Source: Marine Group I thaumarchaeote (GTDB lineage: Archaea; Thermoproteota; Nitrososphaeria; Nitrososphaerales; Nitrosopumilaceae). Taken from it: a stretch of DNA of 38,089 nt. Below, piece by piece: positions 6,923 to 30,513 of this stretch (positions within the stretch are counted from its first letter, which is position 1; each line of letters starts with the position of its first letter). Position numbers and translations under genes: made by a program. The notes beneath the pieces are model-generated. The model saw nothing but the letters and a program-made list of their open reading frames with translations. It searched no databases and was not told the origin of the DNA. The stretch lies in NCBI GenBank assembly GCA_013390785.1, contig JACASW010000008.1, forward strand, positions 1 through 38,089. The letters run 5' to 3'.

Positions 6923-7951
6923 ATGAGTCAAAAATCCATCCAAAATGAATTAGAATACACAAAACATGTAGTAAGCGAACGGCTTTGCTACTATGAACCA
7001 CCAAAAAATAAATTACAAAAGACATTCGTTGAAGAATTATCATCAAGCTTAAATCAAAAACAAAAATCAATTCATCCAAAATTTTTCTATGATAAAAAAG
7101 GGTCTGAACTTTTTGAAGAAATATGTAAGTTGCCAGAATACTATCTAACAAGAACTGAAATTAACATATTAACACAACTATATGAGAAGCTTCCACCACA
7201 TCTAAACGGAGATTTTAGGCTTGTGGAATTGGGAAGCGGCTCAGCAAAAAAAACTCGAATATTTATTTCCATTCTAGAAAGATTACAAAAACATGTGGAA
7301 TATTTCCCAATAGATGTTTCAAATATACTTAAAGATAGTTCCAAAAAATTACGTGATGATTATGAAAATTTACGTGTAACTGGTATAATTGACAGCTACG
7401 AAAGTGGATTAAATTTCCTAAAACATTATGACCATGGGAATAATCTAATCATATTTTTGGGTTCCAGCTTTGGAAACTTTAGTTATGAAAATGGATTAAT
7501 ATTTTTACAAAAAATAAATTCGTCTATGAAGAAAAGTGATTTATTTTTAATTGGGTTGGATCTTGTAAAAGATAAAACAGTATTAGAGCGTGCATATAAT
7601 GATTCACAAGATGTTACTGCAAAATTTAATCTTAATGTTTTATCAAGAATTAATTCAGAATTAGATAGTGATTTTAACATAAGAAAATTTGCACATCATG
7701 CGATATACAATGAAAACCAAAACAGAGTTGAGATATACTTACGCTCATTAGAAAATCAGACAGTGAATATCTCTAAAGCTGATATGACATTACGAATTAA
7801 ACAGGATGAATTGATTCATACAGAAAATTCATGCAAATTTACAATTCCAAAGATAAAAGAAATGTTGTCAACCACTGGTTTTCAAATTAGAGATATATGG
7901 TATGATGAGAAACAGCATTATTGTTTGGTTTTATTTTCAAAAAATGATTAA
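6923..7951 (+). CDS. egtD: L-histidine N-alpha-methyltransferase EgtD (ergothioneine biosynthesis)
   Basis: EgtD trimethylates histidine to hercynine with S-adenosylmethionine, the first step of ergothioneine synthesis. The protein has the family block HPKFFYDKKGSELFEEIC, then ELPEYYLTR-type and ELGSGSAKKTR (the SAM-binding loop), then FLGSSFGNF and LIGLDLVKDK, all typical of the EgtD fold. I chose the ATG at 6923 (342 residues) because the frame's earlier TTG at 6878 adds unrelated residues and a TATA-like element lies at the right distance from 6923. Its stop interlocks with that of convergent egtB over four bases, so the two pathway genes sit tail to tail. Specificity for histidine is inferred from the family and from egtB. 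Confidence 0.9.
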   Translation: MSQKSIQNELEYTKHVVSERLCYYEPPKNKLQKTFVEELSSSLNQKQKSIHPKFFYDKKGSELFEEICKLPEYYLTRTEINILTQLYEKLPPHLNGDFRLVELGSGSAKKTRIFISILERLQKHVEYFPIDVSNILKDSSKKLRDDYENLRVTGIIDSYESGLNFLKHYDHGNNLIIFLGSSFGNFSYENGLIFLQKINSSMKKSDLFLIGLDLVKDKTVLERAYNDSQDVTAKFNLNVLSRINSELDSDFNIRKFAHHAIYNENQNRVEIYLRSLENQTVNISKADMTLRIKQDELIHTENSCKFTIPKIKEMLSTTGFQIRDIWYDEKQHYCLVLFSKND

Positions 7952-9252
7952 GCATATCCCGCACATCTAAACCCCGAAAACATCCACCTTTCATCTAGTC
8001 TGAAAAAGTTCCTATAACTTCCACGGATAGAAATTGATGGTGTGCCAAAGGAACCACCCCTTAACACTTTTTGATTTGAAAACCATTTGTCATTGTATTC
8101 AGAAAATCCCGTTTTGAATCCAGGATAACCAGAGAATTCCGTTGATGTCCATTCCCATACATCTCCAATCATTTGGTAACATCCATAATGGCTCTTGCCG
8201 TTGGGGTATGCCCCAATTTCCGAGCAATTCCAAATGTATGATTCTAACAGATTTGCATGTAGAAGATCGGGAGATTCATTGCCCCATGGGAAAATTGTTT
8301 TTATCTGCTTTTTCTCATCCCAACAGGCAGCTTTTTCCCATTCTGCTTCAGTTGGCAATCTTTTGCCTGCCCATTTGCAATATGCATCAGCTTCGTAATA
8401 GCTAACATGGCAGACAGGTTCATTCTGGTTAATCTTTCGATTCCCCAAAAAGTCACAAGTCATCCATTGTCCATCAATATTTTTCCAATACATTGGGGCC
8501 TTCCAGTTTTCATTTTGTACTTTATCCCAACCATCTGATAACCAATATTTGAAATCATCATAACCGCCATCCTCTACAAATTTCATGTATTGCTTGTTTG
8601 TAATTGGGTACGAATCAATTTCATAGTCGTCAAGATAGACTTTATGTTCTGGTAACTCAATATCGTAACAGAACTGATCACCTGGATAACCCATTGTATA
8701 CAGACCACCATCAATTTTGATTGATCTAGATTCCTGCTGTGATGGTGTGGGCTGGGTGTTTTTTGTTAGTGGTCTATATCTGTCCGCTAATAGATGTTGT
8801 AAATCATAAACTAAAAGTTCTTGATGCTGACATTCATGATTTATTGCCATAAAGAAAAGTTGTTGTGTCTTTTCATCCAACATTCCATTCTGTAAAATGT
8901 TAGTAACCTTGTCAGTCATCATATGAAAATATTCAAAAACTTGATCAACTGTGGGTCGTGTCGCCAATCCCCTCTTATCCTTATCATATGGTTCACCAAA
9001 TTGATGATAGTATGAATTCAGGTATTCGCTAAATTCCTGTGAATAAAATTCGTAGTTCTTAATGGTTTTACTCATAACAACTTCAAGAAGCCAGCTAACA
9101 TGTCCTAAATGCCATTTCGGTGGGCTCATAAAAGGAGCAGTTTGTACAACAAAATCATCCTTCTCAAGTGTTTGTACAAGGTTTAACGTCCTAGCTCTTG
9201 TTTCATTAAATTGTTCCAGAAGATTAGATTTTTGTTTTGAAACTACTGCCAT
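7948..9252 (-). CDS. egtB: hercynine oxygenase EgtB (non-haem iron sulfoxide synthase)
   Basis: EgtB couples hercynine to a thiol (gamma-glutamylcysteine or cysteine) using O2 and Fe(II). The N-terminal DinB-like domain carries the three expected iron ligands: His51 in the stretch KWHLGH, and His139/His143 in NHECQH. The C-terminal FGE-sulfatase domain ends with VLRGGSFGT, RNFFR and SGFRCAGYA. At 434 residues it is a complete EgtB without the extra methyltransferase domain of OvoA. No egtA, egtC or egtE lies nearby, so direct use of cysteine, as in some other EgtB lineages, is possible. A strong TATA element lies upstream. Confidence 0.92.
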   Translation of the reverse strand: MAVVSKQKSNLLEQFNETRARTLNLVQTLEKDDFVVQTAPFMSPPKWHLGHVSWLLEVVMSKTIKNYEFYSQEFSEYLNSYYHQFGEPYDKDKRGLATRPTVDQVFEYFHMMTDKVTNILQNGMLDEKTQQLFFMAINHECQHQELLVYDLQHLLADRYRPLTKNTQPTPSQQESRSIKIDGGLYTMGYPGDQFCYDIELPEHKVYLDDYEIDSYPITNKQYMKFVEDGGYDDFKYWLSDGWDKVQNENWKAPMYWKNIDGQWMTCDFLGNRKINQNEPVCHVSYYEADAYCKWAGKRLPTEAEWEKAACWDEKKQIKTIFPWGNESPDLLHANLLESYIWNCSEIGAYPNGKSHYGCYQMIGDVWEWTSTEFSGYPGFKTGFSEYNDKWFSNQKVLRGGSFGTPSISIRGSYRNFFRLDERWMFSGFRCAGYA

Positions 9253-9711: not shown

Positions 9712-11148
9712 TCAGTAGCCACGAGCAAAGAGCACATTTGTAGTGCCTGAATTTTTACAGTAAATACATGTTTCTGCTTTAGTGTTATCAGATGGAATTA
9801 CACGTATATCTGCACCAGTCTCTTCCTTGATCTTATCTTCACAAGTTTGATTACCACACCAAGAACAATCAATCATTTTTCCATTATCTAATTCTTCTTT
9901 GAATTGTTGGTATTCAGACACTTTAACAACTCTTTCATCAAGTATTTTTTTAGCAGTATCAAACATTTCTTTCTGAATATTTTTTAGTTCTGAGGAAATT
10001 TTTTCTGTTAACGAATCCATATTAAGACTAGTTTTTGTTCGATTATGCCTTCTAACTAAAACTACTTGTTTTTTAGCAATGTCTTTTGGTCCAATTTCAA
10101 TTCGTATTGGAATTCCTTTCATTTCCCAATCATTGAACTTGAAACCTGGAGTAAGCTGTTCTCTATCATCAAGATGGACGCGCAGATCAATTTTAGATAA
10201 GTCATCTTTGATTTGATGCGCTTTTTGTATAACACTATCTTTGTCATCATTTGCATAAATTGGAATTATGACAACTTGAATAGGTGCTATTTTCGGTGGT
10301 AAGATCAATCCCTTGTCGTCACCATGTGTCATAATCATACCACCTATCAATCTCCATGAAACACCCCATGATGTTTGCCATGCAAAAGTTTCAGTATTAG
10401 TTTCATTAAGATATTTTACGTCAAATGGTTTGGAAAAATTTTGGCCAAGAAAATGAGAAGTTCCCATTTGAAGTGCTTTACCGTCAGGCATTAATGATTC
10501 AAGCGTATCAGTGTAAACTGCACCGACGAATTTATCGCCCTCACTTTTTTTCCCGGTTATTACGGGAACAGCTAGTTCTTCTTCTATAGTTTTTTTGTAC
10601 AATTCTAAAATATCTGCAACTTCTTTTTCAGCTTCATCCTTAGTTGCATGAACAGTATGGCCTTCCTGCCACAAAAACTCTGAAGTCCTTAGAAATGGTT
10701 TTGTACCTTTAATTTCTGCTCTTAATGCTGTATTCCAAAAATTAATTTTAAGCGGCAAGTCTCTCCAACTTCTTATCCACTTGGAAAAAAGTGAATATGC
10801 AAGGGTTTCAGAAGTAGGACGAAGTGCAAGTCTATCACCAAGCTCTGAATTGCCAGAGTGTGTAACCCAGAAAACTTCAGGGTTGAGTCCTTCAAAATGT
10901 TCTTTTTCTTTAGCAAGCAGTGATTCAGGTATTAGTACTGGCAAAAATCCATTCCTGTGACCAGTTTCTTTCAGTTTGCTATCGAGCGATTCTTTAATTG
11001 ATTCCCAAATAGAGTAGCCATCAGGTCTTAGTACGATTAGTCCCTTGACTGGTGCATAATCTGCAAGTTCTGCCTTGATAATTACTTGTGTATACCATTC
11101 ACTAAAATTGTCGTTTTTTGAAACAGTGATGCCAACTTCTTTGCTCAA
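9712..11148 (-). CDS. proS: prolyl-tRNA synthetase (archaeal/eukaryotic type)
   Basis: ProRS charges tRNA-Pro with proline. This 478-residue class II synthetase has LALRPTSETLAYSLFSKW (motif containing the proline-site TSE), the motif 2 region FLRTSEFLWQEGHTVH, and GGMIMTHGDDKGL in motif 3. There is no bacterial editing insertion. The C-terminal zinc domain (CSWC...C...CIYC) and the final RGY tyrosine are features of the archaeal/eukaryotic type. Translation appears to start at TTG 11148, directly at the family start (residues MSKEVGITVSKNDNFSEWY). The 98-residue membrane protein gene follows on the same strand. Confidence 0.96.
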   Translation of the reverse strand: MSKEVGITVSKNDNFSEWYTQVIIKAELADYAPVKGLIVLRPDGYSIWESIKESLDSKLKETGHRNGFLPVLIPESLLAKEKEHFEGLNPEVFWVTHSGNSELGDRLALRPTSETLAYSLFSKWIRSWRDLPLKINFWNTALRAEIKGTKPFLRTSEFLWQEGHTVHATKDEAEKEVADILELYKKTIEEELAVPVITGKKSEGDKFVGAVYTDTLESLMPDGKALQMGTSHFLGQNFSKPFDVKYLNETNTETFAWQTSWGVSWRLIGGMIMTHGDDKGLILPPKIAPIQVVIIPIYANDDKDSVIQKAHQIKDDLSKIDLRVHLDDREQLTPGFKFNDWEMKGIPIRIEIGPKDIAKKQVVLVRRHNRTKTSLNMDSLTEKISSELKNIQKEMFDTAKKILDERVVKVSEYQQFKEELDNGKMIDCSWCGNQTCEDKIKEETGADIRVIPSDNTKAETCIYCKNSGTTNVLFARGY

Positions 11149-11200: not shown

Positions 11201-11440
11201 TTACTTATGACCAAGTCTCTTTGCCTTAACAAATTTCCAAAGTTTTTTTGTCATCTGGCTTGGCGGAATGCTAGCTTTACCAAACACTTGCTCTAATGTT
11301 TCTTTTCTATTTTTGAAGCTTATAGTGTATCCACCAAATGGTTTTTTGGTTTTAGTTTTTTTACTAACAGTTCTTTTTTTCATAGTTCTTTTTTTCACAG
11401 TTCTTCTTTTCACTGTTTTTCGCTTCTTCTTCTTAATCAA
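11201..11440 (-). CDS. lysine-rich basic protein with half a SWIB-like domain
   Basis: This is a 79-residue protein with two parts. Residues 1-33 are almost only Lys, Arg and Thr in a loose VKKRT-type repeat, resembling the basic tails of histone H1 and other DNA- or RNA-binding proteins. Residues about 47-79 (LEQVFGKASIPPSQMTKKLW then KFVKAKRLGHK) resemble the first half of a SWIB/MDM2 domain, in which a 'KKLWEYIK' helix is diagnostic; the second half is absent. The TTG start overlaps the stop of the upstream cysteine-bearing gene as TTGA, implying coupled translation. A nucleoid or RNA role is inferred from composition only. Confidence 0.72.
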   Translation of the reverse strand: MIKKKKRKTVKRRTVKKRTMKKRTVSKKTKTKKPFGGYTISFKNRKETLEQVFGKASIPPSQMTKKLWKFVKAKRLGHK

Positions 11441-11727
11441 TTTAGACTGTCACCTTTACACAAAACCTTACCCGTTACACGACTTTGGAAGTTTGGACAA
11501 ACAAAACATGGTATGAACTGTATATCCTTCTTAAGTACTGGGCAATCAACAAATTCCTGTTTCATTCTCTTTAGCATTTTGGGACTCACACCTTTAATTT
11601 TCAATTTTCCTTTTTCATCCATCATGCCAGAGCTCTTCAGTTCTTCTTTTACTTCTTTTGAAAGCATCTGCCTTTTTTCAACACTTTTTATTTCGACCTC
11701 ATACTTGAACTTGAGTTCATCTGACAT
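11437..11727 (-). CDS. unknown protein with C-terminal cysteine cluster
   Basis: This is a 96-residue protein from the ATG at 11727; a TTG at 11733 would add two residues. The first half is charged and helical (residues such as SVEKRQMLSKEVKEEL). The C-terminal part contains four cysteines in the order CPVLKKD, PCFVCPNF and VLCKGD. That spacing could bind zinc or an iron-sulfur cluster. I do not recognise the family. It is the upstream partner of the Lys-rich SWIB-like gene, with a four-base TTGA overlap, so the two products are probably made together. Confidence 0.7.
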   Translation of the reverse strand: MSDELKFKYEVEIKSVEKRQMLSKEVKEELKSSGMMDEKGKLKIKGVSPKMLKRMKQEFVDCPVLKKDIQFIPCFVCPNFQSRVTGKVLCKGDSLN

Positions 11728-29658: not shown

Positions 29659-30513
29659 ATGGCAAAAATAAAACAAAACAGCTACGTTTTGTTCTTTTAT
29701 AATGATTCAAAAAAATGGTTAGTCAAAATTTCAAAAAATGATCAACTTCATACTCACATAGGTGTGATAAAACATGGTGATGCCATTGGACAGGAATATG
29801 GTTCCAGACTTGTTACAAACAAGGACAAGTATGTCTATCTTTTCGAACCAACTATCCACGATTTTGTAATGAAGATACAGCATGGTACTCAGATAGTCTA
29901 CCCAAAGGATTTGGGTTACATTGTTGCTAGAACGGGTCTTACTAGCGGTCAAAAAGTTGTTGAGATTGGAACAGGTAGCGGTTCATTAACATCATTTCTA
30001 GCTGGAATAGTAAAGCCACGGGGTCATGTATACACATATGATGTTGAACCAAAATTTATGAAAATTGCTGAAAAAAATATCAAAAAGGCTGGAATGTCAA
30101 AATACATTACAATGCAAGAGTTTGATTTCAAGAAAGCAAAGAAAATACCACATTCAGAAGTTGATCTTGTAGTTGTTGATCTTGGAGATTCTTGGAATGT
30201 GGTTCCGCAGGCACGAAAGATGCTAAAAGGAAGTGGTGGCTTTGTAGCAATTTGTCCTACCATGAACCAACTTGAAAAATTAGTGCATATACTGGTACAA
30301 AATGAATTTTCTGATATTGAATGCACTGAACAAATTCTTCGTCATATTGAGGCACGTGAAGGAAAGACAAGACATTCTTTTAGAGGAATTGGGCATACAA
30401 CATATCTTGCCTATGCAAGGAAGTCATTCTTTGATAAAAAACCTGCAAAAAAATCAAAAAAGGTTAAGGCTAAAACTATCAGTAAAAAGAAGATTTATTC
30501 ATCAAAAAAGTAA
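29659..30513 (+). CDS. trmI: tRNA (adenine-N1)-methyltransferase TrmI
   Basis: TrmI methylates N1 of adenines 57/58 in the T-loop of archaeal tRNA using SAM. The 284-residue protein has a small N-terminal beta domain, then IVYPKDLGYIVARTGLTSGQ, the SAM-binding VVEIGTGSGSLTS (100-112), YDVEPKFMKIAEKN, and DLVVVDLGDSWN with the catalytic Asp region. The last 30 residues are extremely lysine-rich (PAKKSKKVKAK and onward), a tail not needed by the family and likely to aid RNA binding. The stop is directly followed by nnrD. Confidence 0.94.
   Translation: MAKIKQNSYVLFFYNDSKKWLVKISKNDQLHTHIGVIKHGDAIGQEYGSRLVTNKDKYVYLFEPTIHDFVMKIQHGTQIVYPKDLGYIVARTGLTSGQKVVEIGTGSGSLTSFLAGIVKPRGHVYTYDVEPKFMKIAEKNIKKAGMSKYITMQEFDFKKAKKIPHSEVDLVVVDLGDSWNVVPQARKMLKGSGGFVAICPTMNQLEKLVHILVQNEFSDIECTEQILRHIEAREGKTRHSFRGIGHTTYLAYARKSFFDKKPAKKSKKVKAKTISKKKIYSSKK

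Follow-up and report, generated by a model that had tools for sequence, protein, structure and literature searches.

The SWIB/MDM2 domain, found in eukaryotic chromatin remodelers and in the p53 regulator MDM2, has a fold of two structural repeats. What would an archaeal protein do with one such repeat and a lysine-rich tail resembling the tail of histone H1? The question is raised by a 79-residue protein encoded in a 38,089-nucleotide stretch of DNA from a Marine Group I thaumarchaeote of the Nitrosopumilaceae (GenBank assembly GCA_013390785.1, contig JACASW010000008.1, positions 1 to 38,089; here called the window).

RESULTS

A lysine-rich tail and a SWIB-type half in one small protein

Both open reading frames described in the initial annotation of this DNA, a VKKRT-tailed protein of 79 residues and a cysteine-cluster gene coupled to it through the sequence TTGA, are present as described (Table 1). 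The four-cysteine gene is the upstream member of the pair, and its TGA stop codon overlaps the TTG start of the half-SWIB gene. The half-SWIB protein has a pI of 11.9 and consists of a tail (residues 1 to 34) and a core (residues 35 to 79, FGGY...LGHK). The tail, which had been likened to that of histone H1 and placed next to a SWIB-type half, indeed contains 15 Lys and 5 Arg but neither Asp nor Glu in its 34 residues. Among open 34-residue stretches in all six frames of the window, it ranked first for Lys plus Arg (21 at the best placement; runner-up, 15). From the stop codon of the half-SWIB gene to proS is a gap of 52 bases, indicating that the missing half of the domain is not concealed downstream.

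TABLE 1 Features of the half-SWIB locus in the window
Feature	Position	Strand	Basis or remark
Half-SWIB protein, 79 aa	11201..11440	(-)	ORF, TTG start; stop codon included
Lys/Arg-rich H1-like N-terminal tail, 34 aa, 20 K/R, no D/E	11339..11440	(-)	Composition
45-aa half-SWIB core, one beta-alpha-alpha repeat	11204..11338	(-)	Pfam, alignments A1/A3, hhalign, AF2
Four-cysteine protein, 96 aa	11437..11727	(-)	ORF, ATG start; conserved proS neighbor
Prolyl-tRNA synthetase proS, downstream neighbor	9712..11148	(-)	Pfam tRNA-synt_2b, HGTP_anticodon, ProRS-C_1

Elsewhere in the window, a second Lys-rich tail (15 Lys plus Arg in 34 residues) was observed at the C terminus of a protein named by resemblance as methyltransferase-like (29659 to 30513, plus strand). 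This archaeal window also encodes EgtB of ergothioneine biosynthesis (7948 to 9252, minus strand; NCBIfam TIGR03440 at 469.7 bits, where the cut-off is 360).

The core resembles one of the two SWIB repeats

Against Pfam at an E value of 10 or lower, SWIB (PF02201) was the sole domain match of the 79-residue protein, and the winged-helix globular domain of linker histone H1 gave no match. Residues 47 to 76 aligned with positions 7 to 36 of the 74-position SWIB profile (E = 9 × 10−4; 19.4 bits, under the curated gathering cut-off of 25 bits), and a whole two-repeat SWIB is thus not present. When the PDB was searched with the window protein itself by phmmer, no SWIB was returned (best match, ribosomal protein L1; E = 0.51). 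The family profile (alignment A3) placed the SWIB protein UAF30 first among PDB entries (E = 2 × 10−4), followed by 1v31 (E = 0.02) and 1uhr (E = 0.12). A 58-residue relative without a long tail, from the distant archaeal family f72 (L161), scored 29.9 bits against PF02201, above the cut-off, and it matched positions 4 to 38 of 74 only. Weak PF02201 matches in other relatives (for example, to positions 39 to 66, in frames of about 150 codons) were judged unrelated, and the family profile omits them.

We compared the half-SWIB with 21 full-length planctomycete SWIBs, a panel drawn from one bacterial phylum (24 of 27 fetched loci, all but L205 to L207, were compared with the motif pattern, and 3 of these 24 did not fit it). 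hhalign placed the half on the first half of SWIB with a probability of 97.8 (E = 8 × 10−13). A second, weaker alignment fell on the second half of SWIB in the same register and scored 20.0 when that half was used alone, a value compared with at most 15.4 for 60 column shuffles and 7.2 for the reversed profile. Bit scores were set against 8,991 decoy fragments, from which frames with the motif W-x-[YFH]-[IVL]-[KRQ] had been filtered out. The window core scored 29.9 bits with the profile of the SWIB first half, and the half profile scored a median of 33.3 bits on SWIB first halves; no decoy was as high in either case (0/8,991 each). On SWIB second halves the half profile scored 7.3 bits (9/8,991 decoys as high), and the SWIB second-half profile scored 5.9 bits on the archaeal and viral halves (46/8,991). 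Matched with each other, the two SWIB halves gave 1.0 bit for the first-half profile on second halves (244/8,991) and −2.5 bits the other way (2,950/8,991). The half profile is more diverse than the SWIB-half profiles, which may favor the half in this comparison.

Judged by these profiles, the C-terminal 45 amino acids are homologous to SWIB over its first structural repeat only, and the half-SWIB bridges both SWIB repeats while lying clearly nearer to the first; even the second is closer to it than to the other SWIB half. Its resemblance to both repeats fits a single-repeat form that plays both roles in a dimer or an ancestor-like form, and is compatible with loss of the second half. The earlier suggestion that the protein carries half of a SWIB-like domain is borne out by the hhalign probability, the UAF30 match, the score of the f72 relative, and the size of the family described below.

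The AF2 and Foldseek picture, at middling pLDDT, was consistent with SWIB rather than proof of it. AF2 modeled the whole protein at a pLDDT of 66 with two helices (residues 49 to 53 and 60 to 73), and the core plus one residue (49 sequences) at a pLDDT of 74 with a strand (5 to 7), two helices (16 to 20 and 27 to 40), and a short end strand. The sole Foldseek match of the whole protein was MDM2 (3iux; 1.8 Å), at a nonsignificant E value of 8.2. The core had 19 matches, none of them significant; chains of the thymidylate synthase ThyX were on top at 5 to 6 Å, and MDM2 3iux had the lowest rmsd (1.8 to 1.9 Å over 29 columns; TM, 0.47 to 0.48) but E values of 6.6 and 9.4. Over both models, the MDM2 alignments covered 28 to 29 columns. 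VIA-align of both AF2 models gave nothing at a Z score of at least 2.

Conservation of the core and distribution of the gene

A scan of named genomes found 254 relatives, of which the best 80 were kept (L081 to L160). In all 80, the core runs exactly 45 amino acids to the stop codon, which argues against a broken gene as the source of the half. The earliest codon that could serve as a start was TTG in 77 of these best 80 and ATG in the other 3, an unusual constancy for a non-ATG start. Tails were 21 to 70 residues long with a median of 46% Lys plus Arg (n = 78; L090 and L138 contain undetermined bases and were left out of these statistics and of alignment A2). PF02201 matched the same half in relatives, often with a stop codon directly after it. 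Across 24 aligned cores, that of the window included, 14 columns were invariant, and the median dN/dS was 0.15 (45 codons, 18 cores, 100 usable of 153 pairs). The 45-residue core is under purifying selection, and this result and the decoy comparison of the window core indicate that the protein is no product of chance.

At an E value of 0.01, 49 of 398 genomes of the phylum matched. The 43 strong matches all belong to the Nitrosopumilaceae, the family of the window; 3 more lie in f72 (E = 1 × 10−10 to 6 × 10−10), and 3 weak partial matches (G038, G138, and G275) were disregarded. Among the 101 genomes nearest to that of the window, the half-SWIB was present in 24, all of the same family, and within the genus of the window it was present in 8 of 31. 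This patchy distribution speaks against an indispensable chromatin protein. The named relatives are mostly from Nitrosopumilus, Nitrosarchaeum, and other Nitrosopumilaceae, and two genomes carry two copies each (G445 and the isolate PfA, the latter at L121 and L126). An archaeal half-SWIB behind a RibD-like gene was also seen in L101, titled as a Phycisphaerae bacterium; given this gene content, the contig is probably archaeal and was placed in a bacterial assembly by binning.

Half-SWIBs outside the Nitrosopumilaceae

Scans of IMG/VR yielded seven distinct contigs with a half-SWIB. In six of these the protein is 48 to 55 amino acids long and opens with no more than a few lysines; in the seventh (L214), Lys-rich stretches flank the half-SWIB on both sides within a frame of 140 codons. 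The same scans returned two full SWIBs (L216 and L217), one of which, L217, has a long Lys/Ala/Pro tail. Genes of DNA metabolism were found around several halves: a gp32-like single-stranded DNA-binding protein (SSB) gene and a RecA/UvsX gene flank the half-SWIB in L164 (3475 to 6176), L165 has the same gene order with similar sequences, and ThyX and SbcD-like genes flank it in L168. In the f72 relative (L161, 5213 to 8771), the half-SWIB gene is closely followed by genes for a FEN1-like protein and an ATP-dependent DNA ligase. Another contig, L169, encodes a peptidoglycan amidase, suggesting that it, at least, looks like a phage of bacteria. With a tail-less half-SWIB as the query, named phages matched at an E value of 2 or worse, and plasmids gave no match.

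PF02201 matched 26 of 199 planctomycete genomes, 25 of them above the cut-off, and none of these 25 was a half domain. Of the 27 individual matches, 24 spanned the profile from position 1 or 2 through position 74, two spanned 1 to 60 and 2 to 58 within longer SWIB-like proteins, and one was a weak partial match.

Gene neighborhood and the four-cysteine protein

In the four-cysteine protein, C62, C74, C77, and C90 were invariant across all 24 aligned sequences. The protein could coordinate a metal ion or a cluster. Searches of Pfam, NCBIfam, and the PDB gave no relative worth naming. The protein was present in 87 of the 101 nearest genomes, compared with 24 for the half-SWIB. In every locus examined whose fetched sequence covers both flanks, its gene lies between a divergent HAD-phosphatase gene and proS; in part of the genus of the window the half-SWIB gene is inserted between it and proS, and it stays beside proS with or without this insertion.

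The two genes were adjacent in 7 of the 24 carriers (G000, G002, G007, G010, G011, G024, and G026), all from the genus of the window. Coupling was tight in each of these 7 loci, by the TTGA overlap in the window and by a single spacer base between stop codon and ATG in its six sisters. An eighth carrier (G030) has the pair interrupted by contig ends, and in the remaining 16 the genes are far apart or on separate contigs. The four-cysteine gene was found in none of the fetched flanks of the 80 named-genome loci (the best 80 of 254).

The usual neighborhood was a different one. Among the same best 80 loci, which match a Nitrosopumilus-type query and undersample other genera, 79 have a RibD-like gene in the fetched stretch, and in 76 it shares the strand of the half-SWIB gene and ends no more than 200 bases before it, mostly with a gap of 37 to 40 bases. 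A hemerythrin-like gene lies within 400 bases downstream in 68 of the 80; these labels, like that of riboflavin gene used below, were read from the sequences rather than from a family search. The simplest reading of both neighborhoods is that the half-SWIB gene moved next to the four-cysteine gene in one subclade.

DISCUSSION

We consider it rather likely that this small protein of 79 residues binds nucleic acid, probably in association with the nucleoid. The basic tail would bind DNA (or RNA) nonspecifically, as histone-H1-like tails do, and the half-SWIB cores probably self-associate, with two copies rebuilding a four-helix SWIB fold. A dimer of this kind, with its two basic tails, could bridge or compact DNA, and the protein might act in nucleoid structure or access. 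The gene overlap with the four-cysteine protein would serve expression coupling only, in one subclade and away from the usual site behind riboflavin genes. Nucleic acid binding is suggested by the composition and charge of the tail and by the DNA-metabolism genes around half-SWIBs that have no long tail. The nucleoid reading is weakened by the patchy distribution and by the position of most relatives behind riboflavin genes, not DNA genes.

The half-SWIB might instead be a protein-docking module that binds a partner such as RNA polymerase or a recombinase, with the tail adding nucleic acid affinity only, and the protein would then be an accessory transcription or repair factor and not a packaging protein. 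SWIB domains do sit within larger machines (UAF30, SMARCD, and the topoisomerase/SWI fusion families), and the phage-like copies between SSB and RecA-like genes have no long tail; however, the archaeal family showed no linked gene for a partner of this kind, the main neighborhood there is one of riboflavin genes, and we regard this account as unlikely but not negligible. In another account the half is a degenerate remnant, a once complete SWIB whose second half was lost and which drifts and is retained by chance. While this would agree with the greater nearness of the half to the first SWIB repeat than to the second and with the absence of the gene from many close relatives, it is hard to reconcile with a 45-residue core in all of the best 80 relatives, the median dN/dS of 0.15, the 14 columns that are invariant across 24 aligned cores, and the occurrence of this half in another archaeal family and on phage-like contigs. 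We consider it very improbable.

The initial annotation had proposed that the half-SWIB and four-cysteine proteins form one complex. Tight coupling in 7 of 7 examined loci that hold both genes would favor a dedicated complex of the two, but conservation of the gene pair, on which that proposal hung, did not hold up: the genes are adjacent in one genus and unlinked in 16 of 24 carriers, none of the best 80 named loci links them, and the cysteine gene keeps its proS site irrespective of the half-SWIB. Such a complex now seems scarcely credible, and the four-cysteine protein is probably functionally unrelated to the half-SWIB.

With SWIB/MDM2 (PF02201) the half-SWIB protein shares first-repeat homology, including the helix 2 motif K-[KR]-x-W-x-[FY]-[VI]-[KR]; it differs in having one of the two repeats and ending after 45 residues, and the window protein scores below the cut-off. 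Linker histone H1 has a similar Lys-rich, low-complexity tail, whereas the half-SWIB protein is without its winged-helix globular domain. Stand-alone bacterial SWIBs (of Waddlia and planctomycetes) are likewise small, some with a Lys-rich N-terminal tail (L197 and L217), but are full length. Plastid SWIB-4 contains a whole SWIB domain. It is described as having an H1 motif beside this domain, binding DNA, compacting nucleoids, and complementing an Escherichia coli mutant lacking H-NS (PMC4154389). As described there, it resembles the half-SWIB protein in being small and basic with an H1-like motif adjoining SWIB, and it differs in its plant host and in that DNA binding was shown for SWIB-4 and is predicted for the half-SWIB. 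For the stand-alone Waddlia protein Wcw_0377, ChIP peaks are reported genome-wide, from binding that is direct or indirect (PMC6426960). In literature on SWIB in Thaumarchaeota, ammonia-oxidizing archaea, and archaea, titles and abstract openings named no such protein, and the term SWIB is absent from the main text of a survey of archaeal nucleoid proteins (PMC7613761).

A bolder extension, which we put forward tentatively and hold to be possible but doubtful, is that the half-SWIB represents an extant SWIB/MDM2 fold with a single repeat. Its homodimer would rebuild the pseudosymmetric domain, the form common to archaea and phages would reflect the unduplicated ancestor of the domain of chromatin proteins and of the p53 regulator, and in the Nitrosopumilaceae it would have become an H1-tailed chromatin protein where histones are scarce. 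The same survey gives histones as less than 0.06% of the Nitrosopumilus maritimus proteome (PMC7613761), which would leave room for another DNA-packaging protein. A conserved single-repeat SWIB with sequence features of both halves would make the duplication origin of the fold testable with a 45-residue peptide. For ammonia-oxidizing archaea, the half-SWIB protein is a candidate DNA-packaging protein.
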